Under the pieces are notes generated by a model. It did not search any database. It had not been told where the DNA came from and was given only the letters and a program-made list of their open reading frames with translations. Below, piece after piece: positions 22,669 through 59,038 of a DNA stretch of 64,000 nt (position 1 is its first letter; each line of letters begins with the position of its first letter). Made by a program: the position numbers and the translations under genes. The DNA is from a virus: positions 1-64,000 of the IMG/VR virus record IMGVR_UViG_3300046012_000505; one strand, written 5' to 3'.

Positions 22669-23583
22669 TTAGGAAGTCGGAAAACTTGCGTAGGCCGCTC
22701 TCGGATTATAATATCCGAAAGAGTACCGTTCGTATCCTTTTACGAGCAAGTTATCAGTGGTGAACTCTACCTGCATATCGGTCTCAAAAGCGATTCGCTC
22801 CATGTACGCGAGGCCCTTGATGTTGGTCAGCAGGAACCACGCGAAGGCGCTGGTCAGATAGTCGTTGACCAGGTAGCCCTCAGGCAGGCCACCGGCGGTG
22901 CTGCGGATCGCGTTCACGTCGTTGTCCGCGGTGCCGGGCCGGAGCTCGGTCTGCAGGAGGCGGATGGCGATCGGCTCGAGCTCGGGCGGGACGATGAGCT
23001 TGCGGCCGCGCGCGTGCATCTTCAGGTTGGCCTGATCGATGAAGTTGCGGCGGATCGAGATCATGGCCGACAGCAGGGTCGCCTCGTTGAGGTCGACCTG
23101 GACGCTCGGCGTGTTGGCGTACGTGTTGCCGTCGACCGGGTGCGCGGTCGAGAACAGCGCGACACCGTCGCCGCCGACCGCGCTGTTGAGCACGTTGCCG
23201 GTGTTCAGCACGTTGGCGCCGTAGATTTCCTTCGTCTGCGTGAAGGACTCCATGAGGCCGAGGTTCGACGGCTGGAACTGCGTCTTGTAGAGGTTGTCGT
23301 CGATCGCCTTGCGGGTGATCGCGTAGCCAAGAGCGATCTCGTTGTGCTCCTGGTTGAACGTGAACCGCTGGCCCGCGTTGTTGTCGAAGGTCGTTGCCTG
23401 ACCTTCGGTTTTCAGCGCGGCGAAGCCGAGATAGCGCGCCTCGACCGTGCGTTCGAGGGCCATCTCCGACTTCATGTAGTCGAAGATCTTGTCGTATTGC
23501 TTCTCGATCTGCTGATACTTGCCCGTGACCTCGCGGAGGCCCGGGAACAGCAGGTTGGCGATACTCGCGAGTGCGACCGGCAT
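22669..23583 (-). CDS. Major capsid protein
   Basis: A 304-residue protein from ATG 23583 with GGAGC six bases upstream. It opens with ASIANLLFPGLREVTGKY and an N-terminal helix (QQIEKQYDKIFDYMKSEMAL). It continues with the segments expected of an HK97-fold Mu-gpT-like subunit: GYAITRKAIDDNLYKTQF, LFSTAHPVDG, ARGRKLIVPPELEPIAIRLL and, near the end, VKGYERYSFGYYNPRAAY. The length is normal for this class, with no long cleaved delta domain. Its neighbours are a decoration-type protein upstream and, two genes further, the scaffold-like protein. The call is from motif recognition plus position. Confidence 0.85.
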   Translation of the reverse strand: MPVALASIANLLFPGLREVTGKYQQIEKQYDKIFDYMKSEMALERTVEARYLGFAALKTEGQATTFDNNAGQRFTFNQEHNEIALGYAITRKAIDDNLYKTQFQPSNLGLMESFTQTKEIYGANVLNTGNVLNSAVGGDGVALFSTAHPVDGNTYANTPSVQVDLNEATLLSAMISIRRNFIDQANLKMHARGRKLIVPPELEPIAIRLLQTELRPGTADNDVNAIRSTAGGLPEGYLVNDYLTSAFAWFLLTNIKGLAYMERIAFETDMQVEFTTDNLLVKGYERYSFGYYNPRAAYASFPTS

Positions 23584-28292: not shown

Positions 28293-28913
28293 TTAGCTCT
28301 CGAGCGGCACGTTCCAGTAAAGCCAACTGCCAAAGTCCTCGCGGACGTCGGTCGGTAGGAACTCCAGCCCGGCGCGCAGCAGTTCCGCCGCCGTCGGCTG
28401 ACGCGGCTCCTTGAGCGGCCGCAGCCGACCATGCGCCGCGATTACGCCGCGCCGGCCACTGTGGTTGGCGTCCTTGTCGCCCTTCACGCCGTTGCAGTCC
28501 AGGCAAGCCGTCAGGATGTTCGTCCAGACGGTCTTGCCGCCCTTCGAACGCGGGACGAGGTGATCGAACGTGAGCTCGTTCGAGGGAAACGGCCCACCGC
28601 AATACTGACACCGGAATCGGTCTCGCAGCAAAATCGAGCGCCGGCAGAATTTCGGGGCGCCCGACACCGGCGCATACTGGCGAAGCGCTACGACCTTCGG
28701 GACAGCGACCGTGCACGACGGCGAATGGAAGAACGCATCTTCCCACGTCTCGACGACAGTCACGCGATCGCGATACTGCGCATGCACGGCCGCCTGCGCC
28801 GAGATCAGCGACAACGGCCACGTCGACAGCGGCTGGAAATCGGCGTTGAGCACGAGCGTGCGAAGCCCGGCGGCCGGCAGCGGTCTTCGTTGGGCCTCGC
28901 GAGCGGTTTGCAT
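28293..28913 (-). CDS. HNH endonuclease (McrA-like)
   Basis: 206 residues from ATG 28913, with GGAG six bases upstream. The N-terminal part (LRTLVLNADFQPLSTWPLSL, AVHAQYRDRVTVVETWEDAF) and the C-terminal HNH core match the bacterial/phage family whose active site is FRCQYCGGPFPSNELTFDHL followed by VPRSKGGKTVWTNILTACLD and CNGVKGDK. The two CxxC pairs bind zinc and the DH and N residues form the HNH site. It may be a homing nuclease or a packaging-associated nuclease. It stands between the tRNA cluster and the head operon, a place where mobile nucleases often sit. Confidence 0.9.
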   Translation of the reverse strand: MQTAREAQRRPLPAAGLRTLVLNADFQPLSTWPLSLISAQAAVHAQYRDRVTVVETWEDAFFHSPSCTVAVPKVVALRQYAPVSGAPKFCRRSILLRDRFRCQYCGGPFPSNELTFDHLVPRSKGGKTVWTNILTACLDCNGVKGDKDANHSGRRGVIAAHGRLRPLKEPRQPTAAELLRAGLEFLPTDVREDFGSWLYWNVPLES

Positions 28914-28929: not shown

Positions 28930-29004
28930 TGGTGCCGGATGAAGGAATCGAACCCTCGCCGCCTGCGTACGAAACAGGAGCGCTACCACTACGCTCAATC
29001 CGGC
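28930..29004 (-). tRNA. tRNA-Thr (CGT)
   Basis: Acceptor GCCGGAT pairs with ATCCGGC and CCA is encoded. Anticodon loop TTCGTAC gives CGT. The T-loop is canonical. It is the last gene of the array in the direction of transcription. Confidence 0.9.
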
Positions 29005-29009
29005 TATGC

Positions 29010-29084
29010 TGGTAGGGCCACGGAGAATCGAACTCGCGATCTACCGGTTAAAAGCCGGCAGCTCTGCCATTGAGCTATGGCCCC
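29010..29084 (-). tRNA. tRNA-Lys (TTT)
   Basis: Acceptor GGGGCCA with TGGCCCT, encoded CCA. Anticodon loop CTTTTAA gives TTT. The T-loop TTCGATT is canonical. Confidence 0.92.
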
Positions 29085-29090
29085 ATAGTT

Positions 29091-29167
29091 TGGTGCGCGG
29101 CCCGAGACTCGAACTCGGAACATCCGGGATTTGAAGCCGGCGCCTCTGCCTATTGGGCCAGCCGCGC
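29091..29167 (-). tRNA. tRNA with Leu anticodon (CAA), short variable arm
   Basis: Acceptor GCGCGGC with GCCGCGC, A73, CCA. Canonical spacing places the loop TTCAAAT, anticodon CAA, on a stem with one C-C mismatch. The variable region is only five bases, unlike a normal tRNA-Leu. A shifted reading as UCA (opal suppressor) gives a worse stem. Confidence 0.7.
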
Positions 29168-29170
29168 GAT

Positions 29171-29246
29171 TGGTGGTCCCGCCGGGAGTCGAACCCGGAA
29201 TCTCCCGCTTCGGAGGCGGGCGCTCTGTCCATTGAGCCACGAGACC
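29171..29246 (-). tRNA. tRNA-Arg (CCG)
   Basis: Acceptor GGTCTCG with CGGGACC, CCA encoded. Anticodon stem CCCGC/GCGGG, loop CTCCGAA gives CCG. Confidence 0.93.
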
Positions 29247-29250
29247 ATGT

Positions 29251-29322
29251 TGGCGACCCCGGCTGGATTCGAACCAGCAAAGGCGCGTTTAGAAGACGCG
29301 CGCGCATCCAATGCGCGGGGCC
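29251..29322 (-). tRNA. tRNA-Arg (TCT), shortened D arm
   Basis: Acceptor GGCCCCG with CGGGGTC, G73, CCA. Anticodon stem CGCGT/ACGCG, loop CTTCTAA gives TCT. The D arm is minimal, a GCAT/ATGC stem with a three-base loop; total length is 72. Confidence 0.8.
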
Positions 29323-29329
29323 ATGAAAT

Positions 29330-29407
29330 TGGCGCTCCCGGAGGGACTCGAACCCCCATTTTTCCAGATTCGTAATCTGGTGCCATCTCCAGTTAGGCGA
29401 CGGAAGC
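29330..29407 (-). tRNA. tRNA-Arg (ACG)
   Basis: Acceptor GCTTCCG with CGGGAGC, G73, CCA. Anticodon stem CCAGA/TCTGG, loop TTACGAA gives ACG, normally read with inosine. Confidence 0.9.
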
Positions 29408-29408
29408 A

Positions 29409-29482
29409 TGGAGCCGCGGACGGGATTTGAACCCGCGTTGCGCTGATTGAAAATCAACTGTCCTACCTTAGACGACCGCGGC
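29409..29482 (-). tRNA. tRNA-Glu (TTC)
   Basis: Acceptor GCCGCGG with CCGCGGC, U73, CCA. Anticodon loop TTTTCAA gives TTC. Only one base separates it from the neighbouring Arg gene. Confidence 0.9.
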
Positions 29483-29486
29483 AAAA

Positions 29487-29561
29487 TGGTGGGCAACCGG
29501 CGAATCGAACGCCGCACATCTTGGATGTCGACCAAGCGCTCTGCCAATGAGCTAGTCGCCC
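29487..29561 (-). tRNA. tRNA-Val (GAC)
   Basis: Acceptor GGGCGAC with GTTGCCC, A73, CCA. Anticodon stem CTTGG/CCAAG, loop TCGACAT gives GAC. Position 33 is C rather than the usual U. Confidence 0.88.
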
Positions 29562-29566
29562 GTAAC

Positions 29567-29642
29567 TGGTGCTCCGTGAGGGACTCGAACCCCCGAATGC
29601 CTCGGTGTAAACGAGGTGACTTTGCCGCTTGTCGAACGGAGC
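29567..29642 (-). tRNA. tRNA-Val (TAC)
   Basis: Acceptor GCTCCGT with ACGGAGC, A73, CCA. Anticodon stem CCTCG/CGAGG, loop TTTACAC gives TAC. Confidence 0.92.
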
Positions 29643-29651
29643 AAATTGAGT

Positions 29652-29710
29652 GCGGGGCGAGGGCGTGGCTGGCCATGTCACAGCCCTTTGGACTCGCGAT
29701 CTCGCCCCGC
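29652..29710. repeat. Ten-base inverted repeat inside the tRNA array
   Basis: GCGGGGCGAG at 29652 and CTCGCCCCGC at 29701 are perfect inverted copies 39 bases apart. No T-arm, anticodon arm or CCA is visible, so I do not call it a tRNA. It may be a processing signal or a decayed tRNA. It lies in a roughly 100-base gap between tRNA-Val and tRNA-Pro. Confidence 0.5.
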
Positions 29711-29744
29711 AGCGGACGACGCTCCTATCGCGCTCTCCGCAAGA

Positions 29745-29819
29745 TGGTCGGAGTGAGAGGAATCGAACCCCCATAGTCCTGCTCCCAAAGCAGGCGATCA
29801 GCCATTGACCCACACTCCG
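29745..29819 (-). tRNA. tRNA-Pro (TGG)
   Basis: Acceptor CGGAGTG with CACTCCG (C1-G72 as in bacterial tRNA-Pro), A73, CCA. Anticodon stem CCTGC/GCAGG, loop TTTGGGA gives TGG. Confidence 0.93.
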
Positions 29820-29823
29820 ATGA

Positions 29824-29899
29824 TGGTGCCCCCGACAGGATTCGAACCTGCGGCCTCCGAGTTAGGATCTCGGCGCACGTCCAATCGTGCTACGAGGGC
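29824..29899 (-). tRNA. tRNA-Arg (CCT)
   Basis: Acceptor GCCCTCG with CGGGGGC, A73, CCA. Anticodon stem CCGAG/CTCGG, loop ATCCTAA gives CCT. Confidence 0.93.
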
Positions 29900-29902
29900 A
29901 AT

Positions 29903-29980
29903 TGGTCAGCGTGGCAGGATTTGAACCTGCGGTCTCCTGCGTCCGAGGCAGGCACTTTTGCCAGGCTAAGCTACACGCTG
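29903..29980 (-). tRNA. tRNA-Pro (CGG)
   Basis: Acceptor CAGCGTG with CACGCTG, A73, CCA. Anticodon stem CCTGC/GCAGG, loop CTCGGAC gives CGG. Confidence 0.93.
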
Positions 29981-29986
29981 AAAATC

Positions 29987-30063
29987 TGGCGCCCACGACG
30001 AGGATCGAACTCGCCGCAAACCGGATCGACAATCCGGCCCCGTCACCAGCTGGGTCCGTGGGC
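29987..30063 (-). tRNA. tRNA-Asp (GTC)
   Basis: Acceptor GCCCACG with CGTGGGC, G73 as expected for Asp, CCA. Anticodon stem CCGGA/TCCGG, loop TTGTCGA gives GTC. Confidence 0.93.
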
Positions 30064-30127
30064 ATGAAAGGTTCGCCGCGCTGCTGCTCATCAGGACCTA
30101 TGCAGCACGGCTACGCCGGCCGGCGAT

Positions 30128-30200
30128 TGGTGGCCCAGGTGGGGTTCTTACCCACATTGTCCTGCTTAAGAGGCAGGCCCGATTGTCCGGTCACTGAGCC
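30128..30200 (-). tRNA. tRNA-Lys (CTT), unusual T-loop
   Basis: Acceptor GGCTCAG with CTGGGCC, A73, CCA. Anticodon stem CCTGC/GCAGG, loop CTCTTAA gives CTT. The T-loop reads TAAGAAC instead of TTCGANT, while the T-stem GTGGG/CCCAC is intact. Confidence 0.8.
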
Positions 30201-30207
30201 GTCGTGT

Positions 30208-30282
30208 TGGTAGTCGCGCGTGGAATCGAACCACGATCTCGCCCTTATCAAGAGCGTCCTCTGCCATTGAGATTACGCGACC
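30208..30282 (-). tRNA. tRNA-Ile (GAT)
   Basis: Acceptor GGTCGCG with CGCGACT, A73, CCA. Anticodon stem CGCTC/GGGCG, loop TTGATAA gives GAT. Confidence 0.92.
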
Positions 30283-30286
30283 AAAC

Positions 30287-30369
30287 TGGTGAGCCGGTGA
30301 GAAGTCGAATCTCTCCCCGAAGGAATGGATTTACAGTCCACCTGCCAGAACCGCTGGCTTTCCCGACCC
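30287..30369 (-). tRNA. tRNA-Tyr (GTA)
   Basis: Acceptor GGGTCGG with CCGGCTC, A73, CCA. Loop CTGTAAA gives GTA. It has the long variable arm expected for bacterial tRNA-Tyr (TCCTTCGGGGA). Confidence 0.9.
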
Positions 30370-30375
30370 GTGATA

Positions 30376-30449
30376 TGGAGCCCCAGCGCGGTACTGACCC
30401 GCGATACCCGCCTTACCAAAGCGGTGCACTGCCATTGTGCTACAGGGGC
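30376..30449 (-). tRNA. tRNA-Thr (GGT), unusual T-loop
   Basis: Acceptor GCCCCTG with CTGGGGC (one mismatch), U73, CCA. Anticodon stem CCGCT/GGCGG, loop TTGGTAA gives GGT. The T-loop (GTCAGTA) lacks the usual TTC. Confidence 0.78.
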
Positions 30450-30452
30450 GAT

Positions 30453-30540
30453 TGGCGGAGCGGCGGGAATTCGAATCCCACACCGTGAGGTGCGCAGAGC
30501 TTAGCAGGCTCGCTCGGCGCCCTGACCGATTGCGCGCTCC
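30453..30540 (-). tRNA. tRNA-Ser (GCT)
   Basis: Acceptor GGAGCGC with CCGCTCC, G73, CCA. Loop CTGCTAA gives GCT on a four-pair stem. It has a long variable arm (class II), as expected for Ser. Its 5' half overlaps the end of the small protein gene at 30501-30647. Confidence 0.85.
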
Positions 30541-30647
30541 ATACGTTTCCTCGAATACAGCCTCCTGCTGCGCACGATGCGCGGCCGGAAGATTCGCTCA
30601 CCGAGCGCCTTCGCCGCGGCGCTCCGGGATTTCTTCGGCTTGCGCAT
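30501..30647 (-). CDS. Tiny basic protein overlapping a tRNA gene
   Basis: 48 residues from ATG 30647, with AAGGAG six bases upstream. The product is extremely basic (MRKPKKSRSAAAKALGERIF, then RPRIVRSRRLYSRKR) and the last 13 residues (MERAIGQGAERAC) are encoded by the 5' half of tRNA-Ser(GCT). The first 35 residues look like a complete small conserved phage protein, so the extension into the tRNA may be the result of loss of an older stop codon. A nucleic acid-binding role is likely from charge. It is the only protein gene inside the tRNA array. Confidence 0.65.
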   Translation of the reverse strand: MRKPKKSRSAAAKALGERIFRPRIVRSRRLYSRKRMERAIGQGAERAC

Positions 30648-30661
30648 GGCGCGCTCCTTGT

Positions 30662-30750
30662 TGGCGGAAGGCGGAGGAATCGAACCCCGATCGCTCATCA
30701 CGAACCCCTGGTTTTCAGGACCAGTTGCCAGCCATTTAGCGGCACCTTCC
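30662..30750 (-). tRNA. tRNA-Ser (TGA)
   Basis: Acceptor GGAAGGT with GCCTTCC, G73, CCA. Anticodon stem CTGGT/ACCAG, loop CCTGAAA gives TGA. Long variable arm, class II. Confidence 0.93.
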
Positions 30751-30755
30751 ATAAT

Positions 30756-30833
30756 TGGTACTCGCGGTCGGATTCGAACCGACACTGTCTTCCTTCTGAG
30801 GGAAGCGACTCCTTCCAGTTGGTCTACGCGAGC
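30756..30833 (-). tRNA. tRNA with Leu anticodon (CAG), short variable arm
   Basis: Acceptor GCTCGCG with CGCGAGT, A73, CCA. Anticodon stem CTTCC/GGAAG, loop CTCAGAA gives CAG. The variable region is five bases (class I), not the long arm of ordinary tRNA-Leu. Confidence 0.85.
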
Positions 30834-30834
30834 A

Positions 30835-30911
30835 TGGTGCATGCGGAGAGATTCGAACTCTCACTTGACGGCTTCTCGAACCGCTTCCTCTGCCAGTTGG
30901 GATACGCATGC
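30835..30911 (-). tRNA. tRNA with Leu anticodon (GAG), short variable arm
   Basis: Acceptor GCATGCG with CGCATGC, A73, CCA. Anticodon stem GCGGT/GCCGT, loop TCGAGAA gives GAG with C at position 33. The variable region is five bases. Confidence 0.78.
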
Positions 30912-30913
30912 GT

Positions 30914-30988
30914 TGGTGCGGGCGTAGGGAGTCGAACCCTAAGAGCCTGGGGTTTAAGCCCGGCTGCGTCGCCGTGCGCCACGCCCGC
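30914..30988 (-). tRNA. tRNA with Leu anticodon (TAA), short variable arm
   Basis: Acceptor GCGGGCG with CGCCCGC, A73, CCA. Loop CTTAAAC gives TAA on a stem with one mismatch. The variable region is five bases. A shift by one would read UUA (ochre suppressor) but would lose U33. Confidence 0.72.
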
Positions 30989-30993
30989 GTTGT

Positions 30994-31069
30994 TGGCGTC
31001 CCGTGGGGGAATCGAACCCACCGTTCCCGACTTGAGAGGCCGGTTTCCGAACCACTAGAAGAACGGGAC
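30994..31069 (-). tRNA. tRNA-Glu (CTC)
   Basis: Acceptor GTCCCGT with ACGGGAC, G73, CCA. Anticodon stem CCGGC/GTCGG, loop CTCTCAA gives CTC. Confidence 0.92.
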
Positions 31070-31073
31070 ATGA

Positions 31074-31144
31074 TGGAAGCCGGTGACGGTAGCGCGCCGC
31101 CCTCGGGAGCTTCAAAGGCTCCCTCACTCCTTGAGCAACCGGCC
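31074..31144 (-). tRNA. tRNA-Gln (TTG), atypical arms
   Basis: Acceptor GGCCGGT with ACCGGCT, U73, CCA. Anticodon stem GGAGC/GCTCC, loop CTTTGAA gives TTG. The D arm is short and the T-loop (CGCGCTA) is non-canonical; total length is 71. Confidence 0.65.
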
Positions 31145-31149
31145 AGAGA

Positions 31150-31224
31150 TGGAAGCGATCGGGGGAGTCGAACCCACCATCAGCGCGTTCAGAGCGCGCC
31201 GTCCTACCGTTGAACGAGATCGCC
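31150..31224 (-). tRNA. tRNA-Gln (CTG)
   Basis: Acceptor GGCGATC with GATCGCT, U73, CCA. Anticodon stem GCGCG/CGCGC, loop CTCTGAA gives CTG. Confidence 0.92.
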
Positions 31225-31225
31225 A

Positions 31226-31300
31226 TGGAGCCCGCGGCGCAGAATCGAACTCGCGTCGGCCAGGTACAGGCTGGCTGCTCTGCCACTGAGCTACACGGGC
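31226..31300 (-). tRNA. tRNA-Thr (TGT)
   Basis: Acceptor GCCCGTG with CGCGGGC, U73, CCA. Anticodon stem GCCAG/CTGGC, loop CCTGTAC gives TGT. Confidence 0.92.
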
Positions 31301-31303
31301 AAT

Positions 31304-31377
31304 TGGGGTGAAGCCGGGGATCGAACCCTGCTCTCCGCGTTCACAGCGCGGTGTCCTGCCACTGAACGAGCCTCACC
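31304..31377 (-). tRNA. tRNA-His (GTG)
   Basis: Acceptor GTGAGGC with GCTTCAC, the His-specific C73 and a genomically encoded extra G at -1, CCA. Anticodon stem CCGCG/CGCGG, loop CTGTGAA gives GTG. Confidence 0.95.
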
Positions 31378-31384
31378 ATCGACT

Positions 31385-31456
31385 TGGAGTCGCAGTCGGG
31401 AATTGAACCCGACCGCGCGGTTTTGCAGACCGCGCCGTCCGCCTGGACACCGCGAC
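31385..31456 (-). tRNA. tRNA-Cys (GCA)
   Basis: Acceptor GTCGCGG with CTGCGAC, U73 as expected for Cys, CCA. Anticodon stem GCGGT/ACCGC, loop CTGCAAA gives GCA. Short D-loop. Confidence 0.92.
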
Positions 31457-31459
31457 AGT

Positions 31460-31530
31460 TGGCACCAGCGGAAGGAATCGAACCCTCGTCCAGGCGTTTG
31501 GAGTGCCTGTTGGCGCCACGCCACGCTGGT
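31460..31530 (-). tRNA. tRNA-Trp (CCA), shortened D arm
   Basis: Acceptor ACCAGCG with CGCTGGT, G73 as expected for Trp, CCA. Loop CTCCAAA gives CCA on a stem with one mismatch. The D arm is GGCG/CGCC with a three-base loop. Confidence 0.82.
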
Positions 31531-31533
31531 AAT

Positions 31534-31610
31534 TGGCTCCTCACCCAGGACTCGAACCTGGAACGACGAGATTAACAGTCTCGCTCCCGTGCCGACCGGG
31601 ACCGTGAGGA
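31534..31610 (-). tRNA. tRNA-Asn (GTT)
   Basis: Acceptor TCCTCAC with GTGAGGA, G73, CCA. Anticodon stem CGAGA/TCTCG, loop CTGTTAA gives GTT. Confidence 0.94.
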
Positions 31611-31618
31611 ATAAAACT

Positions 31619-31694
31619 TGGAGCGGACGGCCGGAATCGAACCGTGCTTAGGGCGGTTTGGAAGACCGCTGGGCAGCCAATGCCCCACATCCGC
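31619..31694 (-). tRNA. tRNA-Gly (TCC)
   Basis: Acceptor GCGGATG with CGTCCGC, U73, CCA. Anticodon stem GCGGT/ACCGC, loop CTTCCAA gives TCC. Confidence 0.94.
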
Positions 31695-31697
31695 AAT

Positions 31698-31773
31698 TGG
31701 TGCCGCCCCTCGGGATCGAACCGAGATATCCGGTTCTTCAAACCGGCGCCTTGACCACGTCGGCCAGAGCGGC
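31698..31773 (-). tRNA. tRNA-Phe (GAA)
   Basis: Acceptor GCCGCTC with GGGCGGC, A73, CCA. Anticodon stem CCGGT/ACCGG, loop TTGAAGA gives GAA. Confidence 0.93.
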
Positions 31774-31885
31774 AAATGGGAAACAGGAGGTCTGACTGGT
31801 GAGGCCAGTATTCTCCTGCCCGGCATCGCGACAGACAGGGGACCACCCTGCCCGCCCTAGCCCCATCGTGCGCCAATCGGCGCGT

Positions 31886-31957
31886 TGGTTGCAGCGGTCG
31901 GAGTCGAACCGACGCGACTGAGTTTATGAGACTCAGCGGGAACCGTTCCTCACTGCA
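31886..31957 (-). tRNA. tRNA-Met (CAT), shortened D arm
   Basis: Acceptor TGCAGTG with CGCTGCA, A73, CCA. Anticodon stem TGAGT/ACTCA, loop CTCATAA gives CAT. The D-loop is about three bases. It could be elongator Met or an Ile2-type tRNA; the U1-A72 pair argues against a bacterial initiator, although not decisively. Confidence 0.82.
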
Positions 31958-31958
31958 A

Positions 31959-32053
31959 TGGTAGTCGTCGTAGGTTTCGAACCTACCCGTTCCAGGCCGT
32001 CCGCCCGGTCTCGCGCGCTTATAAGGCGCACCCGCTCACCAGAGCCGACGACC
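31959..32053 (-). tRNA. tRNA-Ile (TAT) with long variable arm
   Basis: Acceptor GGTCGTC with GACGACT, A73, CCA. Anticodon stem TGCGC/GCGCG, loop CTTATAA gives TAT. About 27 bases separate the anticodon stem from the T-stem GTAGG/CCTAC, a class II-type variable arm that is abnormal for Ile. Total length is 95. Confidence 0.75.
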
Positions 32054-32058
32054 AAATA

Positions 32059-32132
32059 TGGAGCGTCCGCCGGTAATCGAAACCGGTCCTTCTCGTTGGC
32101 AACGAGAGGCTCGACCCTCGAGCTACGGACGC
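32059..32132 (-). tRNA. tRNA-Gly (GCC)
   Basis: Acceptor GCGTCCG with CGGACGC, U73, CCA. Anticodon stem TCTCG/CGAGA, loop TTGCCAA gives GCC. Confidence 0.94.
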
Positions 32133-32136
32133 GAAT

Positions 32137-32211
32137 TGGTGGACCTATGGGTAGTCGAAACCCAAGACAGTGATCTTGCAAAGATCGCCCGCTGTTCCGC
32201 AGCTTAGGCCC
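32137..32211 (-). tRNA. tRNA-Ala (TGC)
   Basis: Acceptor GGGCCTA with TAGGTCC, A73, CCA. Loop TTTGCAA gives TGC on a GATC/GATC stem. It is the first tRNA of the array in the direction of transcription. Confidence 0.9.
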
Positions 32212-32845: not shown

Positions 32846-35485
32846 TCAAATCACCCGCGGATGACCACTCGGCGGTTTCGCGAGACCACCTTTGTCGCGA
32901 GCGGCCTTCGCGGCTGCTTCGCGCTCGGCCTCGGCAGCGGCCATCTCGTCGGCGTGGTGACGGTCCTCCTGAGCGATGACGTCGCGGTGGTGCTCGTCCG
33001 CCTGCCGGTGCTCGGCGACGCCGCGCAGGTGCTCGCGGATTACGCCGCCAGTCTTGGCGCCCATCTCGGCGGCGTGCCGATCGGCATCGGCGGAAAGCTC
33101 GTTCCTCTGCTGGATATGATCCGACACGAGGCCAGCCGCGTGACGCGCCTGCTCAGCGGCCAAGCTGTCGCTGTGCTGCTGCAAGTCTGACGCGATGCCG
33201 GCGTGCGTCTTCGCCAGGTCGGCATTCGCCTTGATCTGTTCCGTCTCCTCGCGCATGCCGGCGACACGCTCGCGCGACTCGCGATCGGCGGCGCGATCGG
33301 CGGACTCGACGGCCACCTCGCGGGCACGCGCGTCTTGCGCGGCCTTCGCCTCGATCGCGTCCTGCGCACTCTGCGCCGCGTTGGCCTGCTGCTTATTCGC
33401 CTCGGTCGAGGCTTTCAACTGCAGCGCCGCCATCTTCGCCGGGTCCGGCGGCGGCGCACCAGGCGCCGGTGCGCCGGGCGGAGGCGGTGGCGCGAACAGC
33501 TTCTGGTAATTGCCGATCCCGATCATCTTCAAGATCATGCTATCGACCGCCTTGCCGTCGTACAGCCCGGGGTTCATCGCCTGCAGCTGCTTGATGGCGA
33601 CCGCCTTCATGATCCGCTGCATGTGGCTCGAGGTGTTCGGGTCGGCGGCCGGCACGATGTCGCACTTTTCGAGCGCGGCGATGAACTGCGCCTGTTTCCA
33701 CGGCTTCGCGCATTTCGGATTGTGGCGCCAGAACGCTTCCGGGTCTTCGCGGAACCTCTCTTTGAGCAGCTGGAATTCCTCGCTCTGCGCGGCGTGCAGG
33801 CGGACGTGCACCGCTGACAGCATCTTGCCGGCCTGCTCAATGAGCGCCAGAGTCGTGCCGACCGGCGCGTCCTGGCGCCCCTCGCCGACCTGGAGCTCGG
33901 CCGTGCCGCCGACGCGCTGGCCGGTGGTCTCGACGTCCTTGACCAGCATCGCGAGCCCTTGGCCCACGTCCTTGTAGGGCAACGGCATCACGACGTTCTG
34001 AATGGGCTGCGAGCCGGTCTGGATTTTCGCGCCCATGCCGGGCCCGACGCGGAACACGTTGGTCTGCTGGCGACCAACCGAGTCGGCGTACAGGAAGCCG
34101 GGAAAAGACGCGAACATGCCGGTGTCGAGCATCATGCGCCACGCCGCGGTCAGCGCCTTGTCGGCATTGCCGAGCAGGTGCAGCAGGCCGATGTCGTAGA
34201 AGCCCATGGCGGGGATGAACGGGAATTTGACGAACACCCGCTTGGGCAGGCAGTTGATGTCGTCCTTCTTCCAGTTGCGGCGTATCTCGAGGATTTGCCG
34301 GCTGTCCTTGTCAAGCGTCACCCGGTAGGGAAGCTCCAGCCCGGTCGGCTTGCCGTCGCTGTCGACGTGCTCGAGCCCCTTGATGTTCAGTTCCGTGTAG
34401 CACTCGTAGATCGTGAACTGCGCGTCTTCCGGCCGCTGCATCCGATCATTGAAGCCCTGCACCATCGCGATGGTCGTATCGACGGCGTTCGGCTGGTAGG
34501 TCGGCTGGCCGGCGGTGAGGCTCCCGAGGTTGCGGTAGACGCCGGCGATCTGCATGCGGACCAGCGTCGAGCGGCGCATGAGAATACGGTGCGTGACGCG
34601 TCCGGAATCCTCGAAGTCGTTCGCGGCGTTCGACACGATGAGGTCCGACGCATCGACCGAGCGCGAGATCGGCATCCGGCGGATCGGGCAGTTGTAGACC
34701 TTCTTGAACCCGGCGCCGCCGAAGCCGACCCAAAACAGCATCCGGTCCGTGTCGGGCCGATAGCCCTTATCTGTCGCGGTCAGGTAGTGGTTGAAGTCTT
34801 TCTCTAGCGCTTCGGCGAGATCGTCGCCGTCCTCATCGGTCTGCGCGTTTGGATCGGCGGAGGCGGCCGCGGGGTCCGGACCGTCCGTCAGTTCCGGGCC
34901 GCCGTTGTGGCCGATGCCAGGCGGAGCGCCCGGCGGCGGCGCAGGCTTGATCGGCGAGTCGTCGCGGACCTTGACTGGTCCGCCGGCTGGCAGCAGCTCG
35001 GCGCTGGCATTCGACTGGAACCGGATCACGGCCTCGGTGAGCAGCGGGTGACGGACCGTCGACATGCCCTCGACCGGCGCCGATGCCGTGCCGGTGTCGC
35101 CGCGCGGCTCCTCGAGCTTGAAGCCCAGCAACTCGATGCCGGCCGCGCGGGTTTGCAGCCATTCGTCGCGCGACTGGTCGTCCTGCTGGATCGCGTCGCT
35201 CAATTGCGAGGCGATGCGCCCGAGCTCGCCGGGATCGATGAAGTCGGCGAGGTTGGCGTCGTGGTCTTCGGGGTTGATTTTCTTCGCCGCCGGCGACTGC
35301 GGGCTGAGGTCGATCTTTACCGAGCCATCCTCGACCTCGATTTTGAGCGCGCCGGAAGCCGGGTCCGCCGTTCCCTCGGCGGTTTCCTCGCCGGGCAGGA
35401 TGATAACCGTCGACTCGCCGGGCTCATCGTTCGCGGCGGCCGGCTCCGGCGCCGGCATGAACCCTCTGGCGAGATTGGCGACCAT
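32846..35485 (-). CDS. Portal protein
   Basis: An 879-residue protein from ATG 35485 (a second ATG nine codons on, after GAGGG, is possible). The central region, residues about 120-620, has portal features: DDQSRDEWLQTRAAGIELLG, DRMLFWVGFGGAGFKKVYNC, KRVFVKFPFIPAMGFYDIGL, VGGTAELQVGEGRQDAPVGT and LSAVHVRLHAAQSEEFQLLK. It forms the twelve-subunit ring through which DNA is packaged and ejected. The C-terminal 200 residues are a long Ala/Gln/Glu/Arg coiled coil, like the barrel of P22-type portals, and explain the large size. It lies downstream of the terminase genes as expected. Confidence 0.88.
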   Translation of the reverse strand: MVANLARGFMPAPEPAAANDEPGESTVIILPGEETAEGTADPASGALKIEVEDGSVKIDLSPQSPAAKKINPEDHDANLADFIDPGELGRIASQLSDAIQQDDQSRDEWLQTRAAGIELLGFKLEEPRGDTGTASAPVEGMSTVRHPLLTEAVIRFQSNASAELLPAGGPVKVRDDSPIKPAPPPGAPPGIGHNGGPELTDGPDPAAASADPNAQTDEDGDDLAEALEKDFNHYLTATDKGYRPDTDRMLFWVGFGGAGFKKVYNCPIRRMPISRSVDASDLIVSNAANDFEDSGRVTHRILMRRSTLVRMQIAGVYRNLGSLTAGQPTYQPNAVDTTIAMVQGFNDRMQRPEDAQFTIYECYTELNIKGLEHVDSDGKPTGLELPYRVTLDKDSRQILEIRRNWKKDDINCLPKRVFVKFPFIPAMGFYDIGLLHLLGNADKALTAAWRMMLDTGMFASFPGFLYADSVGRQQTNVFRVGPGMGAKIQTGSQPIQNVVMPLPYKDVGQGLAMLVKDVETTGQRVGGTAELQVGEGRQDAPVGTTLALIEQAGKMLSAVHVRLHAAQSEEFQLLKERFREDPEAFWRHNPKCAKPWKQAQFIAALEKCDIVPAADPNTSSHMQRIMKAVAIKQLQAMNPGLYDGKAVDSMILKMIGIGNYQKLFAPPPPPGAPAPGAPPPDPAKMAALQLKASTEANKQQANAAQSAQDAIEAKAAQDARAREVAVESADRAADRESRERVAGMREETEQIKANADLAKTHAGIASDLQQHSDSLAAEQARHAAGLVSDHIQQRNELSADADRHAAEMGAKTGGVIREHLRGVAEHRQADEHHRDVIAQEDRHHADEMAAAEAEREAAAKAARDKGGLAKPPSGHPRVI

Positions 35486-35569: not shown

Positions 35570-35998
35570 TTAGCGGCGAGAGAATAGCACGGGTGCCCGG
35601 TCGAGGGTAAGGGCCGCTGGCGACCCTCGGCTGGCGCCGGAATGGCCCGCCAACTCCCGCTCCATAGCGCGGCGCATCGCCGCGCGCCTCGACGCCTTCG
35701 CCCGCCCGCGGGCCAACGCCTCGGCAGGCGCGGCAAGGGAGCAGAGCGTTTCCGGGAGATCGCGCCCTCTATAGGCAGCAACGAACTCTTCCGCCGTCAT
35801 GTCGCCCTTGACGTTGTTGCAGCGGTAGCAAGCAGCGACGATGTTGCGGGCGCCACGACCGCCCCGCGAGCGCGGGAGGACGTGGTCGCGGGTGACGCTA
35901 TTCGGGCGGCCGTAGGCCAGCACCATCTCGCGCCGGCAGTAGTGGCAACGGCCGCGGGATCGCTGGAAGAGGTGATTCAGAGAAGGTCCAGAAGGCAT
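35570..35998 (-). CDS. HNH endonuclease
   Basis: 142 residues if started at the ATG at 35998 (MPSGPSLNHLFQRS); an upstream TTG would add 12. The HNH core is complete: GRCHYCRREM, then VTRDHVLPRSRGGRGARNIV and ACYRCNNVKGDM, with two CxxC zinc knuckles and the DH/N active-site residues. It is followed by an Arg/Ala-rich tail. HNH genes near terminase and portal can assist packaging, or it may be a homing nuclease; the domain is only about 75 residues of the total. The 257 bases to the next gene (36010-36254) hold no supported feature. Confidence 0.85.
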   Translation of the reverse strand: MPSGPSLNHLFQRSRGRCHYCRREMVLAYGRPNSVTRDHVLPRSRGGRGARNIVAACYRCNNVKGDMTAEEFVAAYRGRDLPETLCSLAAPAEALARGRAKASRRAAMRRAMERELAGHSGASRGSPAALTLDRAPVLFSRR

Positions 35999-37941: not shown

Positions 37942-39756
37942 TCACGTCGGATAGAGCGGCCGCAACCTCTGCGGCACGCGGAACGACTCCTCGTATGCCG
38001 CGTCCTGCTCGTCGTTTCGCACGGCGAGCCCGCGGTCGCGTAGGTGCTGCAGCGCCTGAGTCGCAGTGTCGGTGATGTCACGGCCGCCGCGGGGGAAGAT
38101 CGCCATGTCGGAAATCACAGTTTCCGCCCAGGCGGGGTACGCCCAACGATCTTCCTTTGCGATGAACAACTGCGGGGCAAATATAATGCCGTTCGAATAC
38201 AGGTGCACGACCGAGTGCGCGCGCGCCACCTTGTCGCCCTTCGGCGTGATGAGCTCGACGCCCCAATCCTCGTTCGCGTACAGGCGCCGCAACTCAGACG
38301 CGACGTCAAGCCCGTTCGCCTTCGCCTCGATCAGCAGCGTGTCGATCCGATAATTCCTGCACGCATGCACCGTCCACTCGACAATGCCCCAGAACTTCTG
38401 CTGCTCGCGCAACCACTCCCGGCAGGTGTCCGCGTGCTTCATCCCGGTCACCGCCTGGCAGAGGTGGCAGTAGGTCGTCGCGATCTGCGCTTCGTCCGGC
38501 ACCGGCGGCCCGTGCAGCTCGAGGTGCTTCTTCCAGCCATACACCAGCATGATCTTCGACCGCTGGTCATCGTCCAAGCGCACCAACTGGTTCCCGTCCG
38601 TGATGAGCCGCGGCCCAAGCTTCTTCACGCCCGTGTCGCGCCACACTCCCCAGATCGTCAGCGCGCTCGGATCATTCTCCTGTTTCTCGGTCAGCGCGGT
38701 ATCGAGCGACGCCACCAGATATTCGAAGGGCGGATAGACGATCCGGCCGCCTGAGTCGCGTTCCGGATGATCGAGCGGCGGATAGAGGCCCCACCATTTA
38801 CGCTTGAAGATGCCGCCGCCGCGAGGAGCGGGCAGCTGTTGCAGCTGCGCGGCCGCTGCATATTCTCCGATGTCGTTTTTAAGCTTGGCGACGACACTCG
38901 ACGTGAACCGCTCAGGGAACGCGAGATCGCCGTCCTCAGACCGGGGATCTTCCCATGTGCGGGTCGGCTCGCCGTCCTCGTCGACCGCCAGCACCGTCAC
39001 ACAGCGGCGGGCGCTGTCGTACTCCATGGGGACCATGTAGTAGACGTAGTCCATTTCTTTCGAGAGAATGGTGCCGGTCACATCGCTTTCGTGCGTTCTC
39101 TGCTGGATGACTACGATCGCGCTTTCTTCCGGGTCGTTGATGCGAGTTGGCACCACCTCGGTGAACCAACGATTGGTCTCATTGCGAACCACATCGGACT
39201 CAACGGACTTGATAGAATTTGGATCGTCCGCGATGACGCGATCTCCGCGCTCCCCAGTGCCGACACCCCCGACGCTTGATGCCAATTTCCAGCCAGATTT
39301 GTTGTTCTCCGGCTTGGTAACGGTGTCGCGCGTGACCTCGAAACGATCACCCCAGAGTTTCTGAAATTCCGGCGAGCGGATGACCTGCAAAAACTTGCCG
39401 TTGTCTCGGACAGTGAGTCCCTGCGAATACGACGCGGCGAGATACCGCATCGACGGCATGTTGCGCGGGCCCCATTCCCACGCCGGCCAGAACACGGATG
39501 AACTCAAGCTCTTGAGAAAGCCTGGCGGCACCCCAAGGAGAAGCCGCTTTATGTGCCCATCCGTCACGGCGGTCAGGTGCTCGCACAACCCATCAATCGC
39601 CCAGCCGCGGACGAACTCGCGTTCCGGCTCGACGACATGCCATAGGTGCGCGATGAACTCGACAAGCGACGCCTCACACCGCGCCTTGATCTCCGCCCGC
39701 CGTTCGAGCTCGTCGCGGACAAGCTGGCGGAGTGACGCGCGGTCGGCCCGGATCAT
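37942..39756 (-). CDS. terL: Terminase large subunit
   Basis: 604 residues from ATG 39756, overlapping the small-subunit gene by four bases. ATPase motifs: Walker A-like GVPPGFLKS at residues 75-83, Walker B RVIADDP with acidic residues at 177-178, and the coupling motif IVVIQQRTHESDVTG near 215-228. The nuclease part has the catalytic Asp in YLVASLDTAL (about 352), LLIEAKANG, and DMAIFPRGGRDITDTATQAL near the end. An unusual four-Cys/His patch (TTYCHLCQAVTGMKHADTC) at about 425-445 may bind zinc. It powers packaging and cuts the DNA. Confidence 0.95.
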   Translation of the reverse strand: MIRADRASLRQLVRDELERRAEIKARCEASLVEFIAHLWHVVEPEREFVRGWAIDGLCEHLTAVTDGHIKRLLLGVPPGFLKSLSSSVFWPAWEWGPRNMPSMRYLAASYSQGLTVRDNGKFLQVIRSPEFQKLWGDRFEVTRDTVTKPENNKSGWKLASSVGGVGTGERGDRVIADDPNSIKSVESDVVRNETNRWFTEVVPTRINDPEESAIVVIQQRTHESDVTGTILSKEMDYVYYMVPMEYDSARRCVTVLAVDEDGEPTRTWEDPRSEDGDLAFPERFTSSVVAKLKNDIGEYAAAAQLQQLPAPRGGGIFKRKWWGLYPPLDHPERDSGGRIVYPPFEYLVASLDTALTEKQENDPSALTIWGVWRDTGVKKLGPRLITDGNQLVRLDDDQRSKIMLVYGWKKHLELHGPPVPDEAQIATTYCHLCQAVTGMKHADTCREWLREQQKFWGIVEWTVHACRNYRIDTLLIEAKANGLDVASELRRLYANEDWGVELITPKGDKVARAHSVVHLYSNGIIFAPQLFIAKEDRWAYPAWAETVISDMAIFPRGGRDITDTATQALQHLRDRGLAVRNDEQDAAYEESFRVPQRLRPLYPT

Positions 39757-56176: not shown

Positions 56177-56367
56177 CCGGCGCCGACATGTGCGCGTGGA
56201 GAACCCGTCTCGCGCTGCGCCAGGAGGACGCCGCGTCGCTCATCGGCTGCTCCAGCCGCCGGCTACGCAGCTACGAGCACGACGACGCGATTATCCCGAG
56301 GAAGATCGAACTCGCGTGTGAGGCGATCGAGGCACGTTTAACGAGGGGGAATGAAAATGCAGCGTGA
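56173..56367 (+). CDS. Small XRE-like HTH protein
   Basis: 64 residues from ATG 56173 (ATGA overlap). The HTH is MCAWRTRLALRQEDAASLIG and CSSRRLRSYEHDDAIIPRKI, the pattern of small phage XRE regulators. It lies directly before the methyltransferase gene, which it overlaps by 11 bases, an arrangement like the controller proteins of restriction-modification systems. A second candidate for the operator-binding repressor. Confidence 0.75.
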   Translation: MTGADMCAWRTRLALRQEDAASLIGCSSRRLRSYEHDDAIIPRKIELACEAIEARLTRGNENAA

Positions 56368-59038
56368 GATCGAGGTCGACAACTTCGCGGGCGGCGGCGG
56401 CGCGTCCACTGGCATCGAGATGGCGACAGGGCGCCCGATCGCCATCGCGGTGAACCACGACGAAGAAGCCATCGCGATGCACGCCGCCAATCATCCCGAC
56501 ACGGAACATATGTGCCAGTCCGTGTGGCGCGCTGATCCCCGCGACGTGGCGCGCGGGCGCCCCGTCGGCCTCGCGTGGTTCTCGCCCGATTGCTTTCCAG
56601 CCGGCACAATGGTTCTGACGCGCGACGGCTACCGCGCGATCGAGGAGATTCAAGCCGGCGACGAAGTGCTCACGCACAGGCTGCGCTGGAAAAAAGTCAC
56701 CGAGACGCACCAAACCACCAAGCCTGTGCTGACGCTACGCGGGCACGGCCATCCAGGCTTGACCGTGAGCCATGAGCATCCGTTCTATGCGCGCCAGCGA
56801 CCGGCGCCGGTTTGGAACAATGATCGCCGGTCTTACGAGTGGAATTTGAACGAGCCGAGATGGGCGCCAGCATCGATGCTGGATCGCGGATGGTACTGGG
56901 GCACGCCGCGCCAGTTTCCCCCGTCAGAAGCTCCCGCCGTTGGCGGCCGCGGAATGATGGTCGACGAAAGCCTGATGTGGCTCGCCGGCCGCTATCTCGG
57001 CGATGGCTGGTCTCGCATCACAGAAACGCGCGCCGAACTTGTCATAATCTGCGGCAAGCATGAGCATCAAACCCTCCGCGCGACGCTGGAGGCATGGCCG
57101 CGCCAGGGTTACCGTGCGGGACACAACGAACTTGCATGGCATTGGCGCGAGGTCGAGACCGCCTATCAGGGATCAACCAATCATCGCGGCCTTGTCGAGT
57201 GGCTACGCTCGCACTTCGGTCACGGGGCCGGCACGAAGACCGTGCCAGCATGGGCCTTGGGTCTATCCGACCACCTGCGCCGCGCTCTGCTGCAAGGCTA
57301 CCTCAGCGCCGACGGCAACCGCGATCACGCCAAGGCTTTCGTCGAGTGCAACACAATCTCTAAAGCTCTCGCCTTCGGCATCAAGGCGCTGGCTAATAGC
57401 CTGGGTCACACCGCAGGAATCTATCTCAACAGCAATAACACCACTACCATCGAGGGCCGCATTGTCTCGGCGCAACCGATTTACAAGCTGCGCTGGCGGG
57501 ATGAAGTCTCGGCACTTCACGAGCAGACGCGCACCGAGAACGGCATCGAATGGTGTCCCATCCGTGAGCAGTCTGACACGGGGCAATCAGCCACGGTCTA
57601 TAACATCGGCGTTGAGGACGACGAGAGCTATATCGTCGAGGGGATCATCGTCCACAACTGCAAGCACTTCTCCAAGGCGAAGGGCAGTCAGCCCGTCAAG
57701 CGCAACATCCGCGACCTCGCCTGGGTGGTGATCCATTGGGCGAAGCTCGTGCAGCCGCGCATCATCATGCTGGAGAACGTCGAGGAATTCCGCGATTGGG
57801 GTCCGCTGATCGAGGGCGTCGACGGTAAGATGGTTCCCTGCCCGCTCCGCAAGGGGCTGACCTATCGCCGCTGGAAACGGGAGTTGGTGAAGCTCGGATA
57901 CCGCGTCGAGGACCGCGAGCTACGCGCCTGCGACTACGGTGCGCCGACCATCCGCAAGCGCCTGTTCGTCATCGCGCGGCGCGACGGCCTGCCGATCATT
58001 TGGCCGGCGCCTACGCACGCCCCTCTTCGGCTAAGCCAGGATGGCATCGTTACGGAGTGGGCACGCGGACATGGCCTGACACTTAAGGACATCCAAAACC
58101 TCAAGCCGTACCGCACCGCGGCAGACTGCATCGACTGGTCTATTCCTTGCCCGTCGATCTTCGAGCGCGATCGCCCGCTGGCCGAGAACACCATGCGGCG
58201 TATCGCGGCAGGCATCAAACGCTACGTGATCGACGCGGCCACGCCATTCATCGTGCCGGTGACGCACCACGGCGACAGCCGAGTCCACGGCATCGACGAG
58301 CCGCTCCGTACCGTGACCACGGCACCCCGAGGCGAACACGCCCTGGTGACGCCGTTCATCGCCCCGCGCTACGGCGAGCGCCCGGGCCAGGAGCCGCGCA
58401 CCCACGCCGCCGACAAGCCGATCCCGACCATCGTTCCGACCGCGAACGGCGCCCGGCTAGTCGCGGCGTTCATGGCGCAGCACAATACCGGGATGGTAGG
58501 CCACCCGATGACCAAGCCTCTCTCCACCATCATCCAACGCGGAACGACGCAGGGTCTCGTGACGTCCAACCTCGTCAAGCTGCGCGGCACCTGCAAGGAC
58601 GGCCAGCCAGTCGACGAGCCGGCGCCGACGATCACCGCCGGCGGATGGCACATCGGCGAAGTCCGCGCCTTCCTCATCAAGTATTTCGGCACCGACCAGG
58701 ATCCGCGCCTGGAGGAGCCGATGCACACCGTCACGACGCGCGACCGCTTCGGCCTCGTCACCGTGGCCGGCGAGGAATACCAGATTGTCGACATTGGGAT
58801 GCGGATGCTGACCCCGCGCGAGCTTTTCCGGGCGCAGGGCTTCCCGGAATCGTACATCATCGATCCGATGTTCAACGGAAAGCCCCTGACGAAGACATCC
58901 CAGGTCCGCTGCTGCGGCAACTCTGTCTGTCCGCCGCTGTCCGAGGCGCTTGTCCGGGCGAATTACGTGCCCGATCAGGTCGCGCCGACGCGGCGCCGTC
59001 CAGCCGCCGTCCAGCCTGTCGTCGCGGCGCTGTTCTGA
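56357..59038 (+). CDS. DNA C5-cytosine methyltransferase interrupted by an intein
   Basis: 893 residues from ATG 56357 (an ATG two codons earlier is poorly spaced from the GAGGGGG site). The methyltransferase halves are residues 1-78 and 435-893. Motif I-like VDNFAGGGGASTGIEMATGR, then VAVNHDEEAIAMHAANHPDT, then FSPDC-KHFSKAKG as motif IV with the catalytic Cys, then IIMLENVEEFRDWGPL (motif VI, ENV). The C-terminal part has LTPRELFRAQGFPESYIID and VRCCGNSVCPPLSEALV as motifs IX and X. The intein (356 residues) lies between SPD and the catalytic Cys, so the enzyme is dead until splicing. It probably protects phage DNA from host restriction. Confidence 0.93.
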   Translation: MQREIEVDNFAGGGGASTGIEMATGRPIAIAVNHDEEAIAMHAANHPDTEHMCQSVWRADPRDVARGRPVGLAWFSPDCFPAGTMVLTRDGYRAIEEIQAGDEVLTHRLRWKKVTETHQTTKPVLTLRGHGHPGLTVSHEHPFYARQRPAPVWNNDRRSYEWNLNEPRWAPASMLDRGWYWGTPRQFPPSEAPAVGGRGMMVDESLMWLAGRYLGDGWSRITETRAELVIICGKHEHQTLRATLEAWPRQGYRAGHNELAWHWREVETAYQGSTNHRGLVEWLRSHFGHGAGTKTVPAWALGLSDHLRRALLQGYLSADGNRDHAKAFVECNTISKALAFGIKALANSLGHTAGIYLNSNNTTTIEGRIVSAQPIYKLRWRDEVSALHEQTRTENGIEWCPIREQSDTGQSATVYNIGVEDDESYIVEGIIVHNCKHFSKAKGSQPVKRNIRDLAWVVIHWAKLVQPRIIMLENVEEFRDWGPLIEGVDGKMVPCPLRKGLTYRRWKRELVKLGYRVEDRELRACDYGAPTIRKRLFVIARRDGLPIIWPAPTHAPLRLSQDGIVTEWARGHGLTLKDIQNLKPYRTAADCIDWSIPCPSIFERDRPLAENTMRRIAAGIKRYVIDAATPFIVPVTHHGDSRVHGIDEPLRTVTTAPRGEHALVTPFIAPRYGERPGQEPRTHAADKPIPTIVPTANGARLVAAFMAQHNTGMVGHPMTKPLSTIIQRGTTQGLVTSNLVKLRGTCKDGQPVDEPAPTITAGGWHIGEVRAFLIKYFGTDQDPRLEEPMHTVTTRDRFGLVTVAGEEYQIVDIGMRMLTPRELFRAQGFPESYIIDPMFNGKPLTKTSQVRCCGNSVCPPLSEALVRANYVPDQVAPTRRRPAAVQPVVAALF
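56591..57658 (+). mobile_element. Intein with LAGLIDADG homing endonuclease
   Basis: 356 residues (79-434 of the precursor). Block A: CFPAGTMVLTRDGYRAIEEI; block B: LTVSHEHPFYAR; two LAGLIDADG motifs, LAGRYLGDG (209-217) and LLQGYLSADG (311-320); block F: VYNIGVEDDESYIVEGIIVH; block G: VHN followed by Cys. All splicing residues (Cys1, block B His, His-Asn, +1 Cys) are present. The endonuclease would cut intein-free alleles at the most conserved point of the methyltransferase gene. Confidence 0.95.

Follow-up and report, generated by a model that had tools for sequence, protein, structure and literature searches.

The window analysed here, i.e. the whole stretch of 64,000 nucleotides that forms the first part (positions 1 to 64,000) of the 101,002-bp IMG/VR virus record IMGVR_UViG_3300046012_000505, carries on its minus strand, between positions 28930 and 32211, an array of 36 tRNA genes with 36 different anticodons that together represent all 20 amino acids. 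We consider it somewhat better than an even chance that this array, which is of a type known from other phages, provides the virus with its own pool of elongator tRNAs for nearly every codon, which pool would replace host tRNAs that had been cut or depleted. Of greater weight than the array itself is a second finding, namely that all four of its leucine tRNAs are short-armed, a form that we also encountered in phages of many other bacteria.

Detection of the tRNA genes

ARAGORN at default settings recognised 31 tRNA genes in the window, all of them on the minus strand and within 28930–32211. When the threshold was lowered to 80% (-ps80), exactly five further minus-strand tRNAs were gained—Lys-CTT, Tyr-GTA, Ser-GCT, Ser-TGA, and Gln-TTG—each of which lay in a gap of the array and ended in CCA; six plus-strand matches obtained at the same setting were judged spurious, being antisense or overlapping, and indicate the false-positive level of the lowered threshold. 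Infernal/Rfam returned, at the gathering score, 23 tRNAs in the window and 26 with the whole 101-kb record as the target, and at a low threshold still others, including Lys-CTT, Tyr, and Ser-TGA. For Gln-TTG and Ser-GCT the support consists of ARAGORN and inspection, the weakest call being Gln-TTG, whose T-loop is degenerate and without the TTCRA motif.

The array accordingly totals 36 genes, every one with an encoded CCA end; that of tRNA-His lies at 31304, one base past the end assigned by ARAGORN. An anticodon census gave all 20 isotypes, of which only Tyr and Ser are without a default ARAGORN call, and no tRNA was found outside the array elsewhere in the 101-kb record. Thirty-six draws from a pool of 43 anticodons would show no repeat with p ~ 2e-10. 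At 11 tRNAs/kb (36 genes in 3.28 kb), the array lies within what is taken as a phage tRNA gene cluster (at least 2 tRNAs/kb and at least 15 genes). An earlier, sequence-only reading of this DNA, which had counted 36 CCA-ended tRNAs with 36 anticodons on one strand and had described them as a non-redundant set for all 20 amino acids, was thus borne out by the ARAGORN run on the window that it had itself suggested and by the census. The isotypes about which it had voiced doubt are likewise real, since Ala (with G3:U70), Trp (with G73), Gln-CTG (48.6 bits), and Met were all called at default settings.

Decoding capacity and charging signals

Under strict wobble, with inosine for the ACG anticodon, seven sense codons go unread, which together amount to 92.8 per 1000 phage codons (9.3%), the largest of them being Ala GCC with 53 per 1000. 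If, alternatively, U34 reads whole family boxes, Leu CUA alone is left unread (2.3 per 1000). The sole CAT tRNA has the anticodon stem UGAGU/ACUCA, without the run of three G-C pairs that marks initiators, for which reason translation start relies on the host tRNA; self-sufficient decoding, which takes an initiator together with readers for all 61 sense codons, is therefore beyond the array. A search of the products of approximately 45 of the 134 predicted genes recognised none as an aminoacyl-tRNA synthetase. The independence from host tRNAs that the sequence-only reading had envisaged consequently holds as regards a non-redundant set for 20 amino acids, but not as regards initiation, the CUA codon, and the synthetases, so that the term is too strong and "replacement pool" fits the array better.

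The number of genes, for its part, is uncoupled from codon demand: Ala, with 13.6% of the codons, has one tRNA, and Leu UUA, with 0.03%, has its own. This pattern bears upon codon compensation, in which tRNAs boost those codons that the phage uses more than the host does—the view with the widest acceptance as regards phage tRNAs according to PMC10264068, and an explanation reported for the phage XacN1 (PMC5852040). As rare and frequent codons are here served alike, and as the phage GCC and GCU codons have no dedicated tRNA, we hold compensation to be an unlikely account of this array; the provision of one gene per anticodon whatever the demand would instead point to replacement rather than to codon tuning.

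The bacterial identity elements are largely kept, the choice of those that count resting on established knowledge of bacterial tRNA identity: G3:U70 in Ala, G-1:C73 in His, C1:G72 plus A73 in Pro, the long arm plus G73 in Ser, U73 in Gly, G73 in Trp, and A73, A15-U48, and A20a in three of the four leucine tRNAs. Most of the array tRNAs, to judge from their genes, therefore look chargeable. These same elements argue, in our view, against a use as decoys, in which the tRNAs would absorb anticodon nucleases or tRNA-modifying toxins without any need of being charged: the degenerate or odd forms of Gln-TTG, Leu-TAA, and Ile-TAT would suit such a use, and the tRNA-Tyr of phage T6 may serve as a decoy or as a supplement (PMC13096335), but decoys would have no use for the synthetase signals that are retained beyond the anticodon arm (in Ala G3:U70, in His G-1:C73, in Leu A15-U48/A20a, and in Ser the long arm), which makes the decoy explanation very unlikely. 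When we sought a donor through the nearest Acidisoma tRNA, only 20 of the 36 matched their own isotype, so that the genes are too diverged for a donor to be named.

Short-armed leucine tRNAs

The four tRNA-Leu of the array measure 75–78 nt and have a variable loop of 5 nt, i.e. the class I shape and not the long arm of class II, whose absence from leucine tRNAs has otherwise been reported only in animal mitochondria. The leucyl-tRNA synthetase (LeuRS) of E. coli requires A73, A15-U48, G18G19, and A20a, and does not require the variable arm (PMC9976931); these determinants are complete in three of the four genes, the fourth, Leu-TAA, being without A15 and A20a, and the combination of A15-U48 and A20a occurs in only 2 of the 28 other short tRNAs of the array. 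Artefacts of ARAGORN, or other isotypes that had come to bear leucine anticodons, were considered as sources of these genes, but complete cloverleaves and leucine determinants speak against both.

Short tRNA-Leu were found, furthermore, in phages of Streptomyces, Mycobacterium, Rhodococcus, Gordonia, Enterococcus, Lactobacillus, Vibrio, Pseudomonas, Stenotrophomonas, Shigella, Sinorhizobium, Klebsiella, Erwinia, and Salmonella. In a sample of 12 phages picked without regard to leucine tRNA, the short form made up 12 of 21 tRNA-Leu versus 1 of 17 tRNA-Ser (p = 0.0015), the serine arm being thus kept in 16 of 17, as it was in 79 of 79 further IMG/VR loci among the matches listed; in that same sample all 12 short tRNA-Leu combined A15-U48 with A20a, the figure for the remaining short tRNAs being 24 of 217 (p = 4e-11). 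Pattern scans of IMG/VR, which yield lower bounds and prove existence rather than frequency, located the short Leu(CAA) pattern at no fewer than 80 loci, at least 70 of which were confirmed as tRNA-Leu(CAA). As to bacteria, all five tRNA-Leu of Acidisoma are long, and among 58 alphaproteobacterial genomes the long Leu(CAA) pattern matched 25, the short one matching a single time, in a stretch where ARAGORN recognised no tRNA. Leu(CAA) was used because the Leu(CAG) patterns, with C fixed at position 32, were uninformative for bacteria, their long-arm positive control matching in only 2 of 96.

After removal of the arm and the anticodon, the nearest neighbour of a short gene was short in 77 of 87 instances and that of a long gene long in 41 of 48, and a tree required 14 changes of arm state versus at least 31 in shuffles, though genes of 70 nt resolve little. 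Given this grouping and the small number of changes, a few old arm losses followed by spread among phages would fit better than many recent losses. We regard as evenly poised the proposition that the short phage tRNA-Leu can still accept leucine and pass between phages whose hosts belong to different bacterial phyla, and that phage tRNAs, if the gains of arms described below are included, depart from the class I/II rule as far as recognition by the synthetases permits, possibly thereby evading nucleases that act on the variable region.

Seryl-tRNA synthetase (SerRS) requires the long arm of serine tRNA. A relaxed constraint would thus directly explain why the leucine arm was lost, bacterial LeuRS having no need of it, and the serine arm kept. 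The loss may in addition have taken away a handle for host nucleases; indeed, a live alternative is that it was selected mainly as an escape from nucleases of the variable region and not merely tolerated, which alternative we rate as possible, albeit doubtful. Retron-Eco7 and Septu cut the variable loop of tRNA-Tyr, and the tRNA-Tyr of T5 resists by means of a distinctive loop (PMC13096335); the short forms, moreover, cluster across hosts from several phyla, and arms have been gained by other isotypes, such as Lys, Asn, Thr, and Cys in XacN1. Relaxed constraint, however, predicts the same pattern of short leucine and long serine arms, LeuRS ignoring the arm (PMC9976931), and we know of no nuclease specific to long-armed tRNA-Leu. 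The present data do not separate the two explanations. Arm gain is also seen in the array itself: Ile(TAT), whose isotype is assigned from its anticodon alone, departs from the class I shape with a variable region of approximately 26 nt; it measures 95 nt here and 91–95 nt in Stenotrophomonas phage DLP_6 and Lactobacillus phage Semele. The Lys, Asn, Thr, Cys, and Gly tRNAs of XacN1, at 86–91 nt, have what appear to be long variable arms.

To our search of the open-access literature, from which subscription journals lay apart, no report of a short-armed phage tRNA-Leu came to light, and as far as that literature goes the form would seem to be undescribed. If confirmed, it would mean that a textbook structural rule, that of the leucine arm in class II, breaks down for much of the phage world. 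The loss of the arm in leucine together with its retention in serine constitutes evidence, from sequence, of selection for the charging of phage tRNAs, and this pattern also makes it possible to examine directly whether the need to escape host nucleases drives the evolution of tRNA shape.

RNA ligase, anti-restriction genes, and the use of the array

Outside the window, at 77567–78208 of the genome, the phage encodes an RNA ligase of the Rnl2 type with 213 amino acids, which protein matches PF09414 (E 3e-17) and the PHROG RNA ligase (5e-20), lies under the NCBIfam cut-off for the Rnl2 equivalog, and has, in its EKVDGTN motif and nucleotidyltransferase fold, the features (fold plus KxDG) of the T4 Rnl2 family. 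The gene adjoins those of a RecE-like nuclease (DUF3799) and an AAA_24 ATPase, and from its sequence the ligase could have a role either in tRNA repair or in recombination. Lar-like and DarB-like anti-restriction proteins are also encoded, and in other phages (Streptomyces phage Tomas, Microbacterium phage A3Wally, and Mycobacterium phage Estes) RNA ligase genes stand beside or near tRNAs. Phage tRNAs have been reported to counter tRNA-cleaving defences (PMC10264068; PMC11555353; PMC13096335). In view of tRNAs that look chargeable, the ligase, the anti-restriction genes, and the ligases near tRNAs elsewhere, protection against a tRNA-cleaving defence would be the most likely use of the array; of the suggestion, made in the sequence-only reading, that the host or its defences degrade tRNA, it can be said that the ligase and the anti-restriction genes render it plausible.

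According to the replacement reading, the array would be expressed as one unit behind its terminator and its tRNAs charged by the host synthetases, and the resulting pool would sustain elongation when host tRNAs were cut or depleted, be it by a tRNA-targeting defence or by host decay, with initiation, charging, and modification all staying dependent on the host. Several observations weigh against this reading. Among the relatives recognised through their portal, terminase, or capsid protein, most have no tRNA at all and none has more than five, from which it follows that the array is a lineage-specific acquisition and is dispensable for the lifestyle of the capsid family. No polynucleotide kinase or other end-healing kinase was found among the approximately 45 of 134 proteins searched, so that repair by the ligase is a putative function. 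Nine of the 36 discriminator bases differ from those of the same isotype in Acidisoma, itself an uncertain proxy for the host, although one of the nine, His, probably reflects a misread end of the Acidisoma gene. The degenerate or odd shapes of Gln-TTG, Leu-TAA, and Ile-TAT count in the same direction.

Gene order and genomic surroundings

The genes are given here from 5' to 3' on the minus strand, each having been called by ARAGORN at default settings and by Infernal/Rfam unless otherwise indicated. The array lies downstream of an intrinsic terminator that follows the portal gene (32362–32334; 11-bp stem, loop of 7, and T-run; fold z = -3.5), so that the strong terminator reported to part the array from the portal unit is real; from there to the first tRNA, the minus strand gave no match to a sigma-70 promoter. 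The series opens with Ala(TGC) at 32137–32211 (ARAGORN default), Gly(GCC) at 32059–32132, the unusual Ile(TAT) of class II shape at 31959–32053 and the elongator-type Met(CAT) at 31886–31957 (both ARAGORN default plus inspection), Phe(GAA) at 31698–31773, Gly(TCC) at 31619–31694, Asn(GTT) at 31534–31610 (ARAGORN default), Trp(CCA), with a weak D arm, at 31460–31530 (ARAGORN default plus Infernal on the 101-kb record), Cys(GCA) at 31385–31456 (ARAGORN default), and His(GTG) at 31304–31377, whose ends were read from the sequence. There follow Thr(TGT) at 31226–31300, Gln(CTG) at 31150–31224, Gln(TTG) at 31074–31144 (-ps80), Glu(CTC) at 30994–31069, the short-looped Leu(TAA) at 30914–30988, Leu(GAG) at 30835–30911, and Leu(CAG) at 30756–30833, Ser(TGA) at 30662–30750 (-ps80 plus low-threshold Infernal), Ser(GCT) at 30453–30540 (-ps80 plus inspection), Thr(GGT) at 30376–30449, Tyr(GTA) at 30287–30368 (-ps80 plus low-threshold Infernal), Ile(GAT) at 30208–30282, and Lys(CTT) at 30128–30200 (-ps80 plus low-threshold Infernal). 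The remainder comprises Asp(GTC) at 29987–30063 (ARAGORN default), Pro(CGG) at 29903–29980, Arg(CCT) at 29824–29899, Pro(TGG) at 29745–29819, Val(TAC) at 29567–29642, Val(GAC) at 29487–29561, Glu(TTC) at 29409–29482, Arg(ACG) at 29330–29407, Arg(TCT) at 29251–29322 (ARAGORN default plus Infernal on the 101-kb record), Arg(CCG) at 29171–29246, the short-looped Leu(CAA) at 29091–29167, Lys(TTT) at 29010–29084, and Thr(CGT) at 28930–29004.

Two gaps without tRNAs, at 29643–29744 and 31774–31885, contain strong hairpins (z -3.4 and -2.2, respectively) that have no Rfam match and are possible processing elements or decayed tRNAs. The motif CTGATGAG at approximately 30100 resembles a hammerhead core; as it is not accompanied by a suitable stem II and Rfam gives no match at E 10, it was put down to chance. 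Genes for HNH endonucleases, which are often found at phage tRNA arrays, flank the region, one just after the array (28293–28853), resembling the HNH domains of IscB, and the other just before the portal gene (35570–35926).

The phage is podovirus-like, with a portal (32846–35485), a large terminase (37942–39756), a major head protein (22669–23583), and an ejection-type protein. From a tyrosine integrase (PF00589; genome 84479–85531) and from capsid relatives at 69–73% in contigs of Rhizobium and Acidisoma isolates, we infer that it is probably temperate and probably infects an alphaproteobacterium. A scan of bacterial genomes with the integrase found no relative, and hence no direct host or attB, and a resolvase search, undertaken for hints of the host, yielded nothing beyond broad matches to plasmids at approximately 60%. 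The integrase, together with prophages of this capsid family that isolates of Rhizobium and Acidisoma harbour, could also speak for tRNAs with a role in tRNA-dependent lysogeny, or in growth across hosts whose tRNA sets differ; yet the published tRNA-dependent lysogeny takes one tRNA of the disrupted isotype and not 36 (PMC13015707), and no tRNA or tRNA fragment was recognised beside the integrase. We consider this explanation, too, unlikely. A tRNA-like stretch near the integrase (GCTGCGG...CCGCAGC with a T-arm-like motif; genome approximately 86997–87106), which neither ARAGORN nor Rfam called, is a possible attP remnant.

Two genes on the same strand are cut by the ends of the record, one DarB-like (window 2–4642) and the other at genome 92362–101001; circular permutation may have divided a single giant gene into these two, in which circumstance the record may represent a permuted genome that is nearly complete. 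A cytosine-5 DNA methylase gene (56351–59038) is split by an intein, which itself carries a LAGLIDADG endonuclease domain, and a sulfotransferase gene (PF13469; 14392–15528, plus strand), lying on the opposite strand inside the block of structural genes, is likely a moron gene.

Comparison with known systems

As complete sets of 20 isotypes occur in XacN1, in eight phage tRNA clusters of a 2019 survey (PMC6409571), and in the unrelated 118.9-kb viral contig IMGVR_UViG_3300044706_000074 (37 tRNAs, 36 anticodons), the array by itself is a further example of something known and not unique. What it offers is a clean and very dense case of a phage, here one with an integrase and an RNA ligase, that brings nearly all of its elongator tRNAs itself, and a case suited to deciding between codon compensation and tRNA replacement. 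In the T4-type tRNA repair and the tRNA replacement of T5 against retron-Eco7, an RNA ligase and phage tRNAs oppose cleavage much as the array would do; those systems differ from the present one, where no end-healing enzyme of the polynucleotide-kinase type was found among the searched proteins.

The phage tRNA gene clusters or array units described so far (PMC6409571, PMC5966550) are likewise dense, confined to one strand, and above 2 tRNAs/kb, with 15–37 genes and in some instances 20 isotypes; their reported densities of approximately 2–10 tRNAs/kb lie slightly below the present one, and the 2019 maximum for Podoviridae was 23 tRNAs, compared with the 36 of this podovirus-type phage with an integrase. 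Xanthomonas phage XacN1 (PMC5852040) has 26 canonical tRNAs per terminal repeat and, as here, covers all 20 amino acids, but is a jumbo phage whose tRNAs are dispersed among open reading frames (ORFs) and whose tRNA-Leu keep their long arms. Shigella phage Sf14, with 26 tRNAs for 19 amino acids, has three tRNA-Leu, all of 77–79 nt and short like those of the array, the paper on that phage being silent on the variable loop or arm (PMC12482277). The cluster M mycobacteriophage Estes, which also has an integrase, and Gordonia phage Sixama resemble the array in their large repertoires and short tRNA-Leu, and differ from it in having actinobacterial hosts and tRNAs that extend over 5–6 kb with interspersed ORFs.

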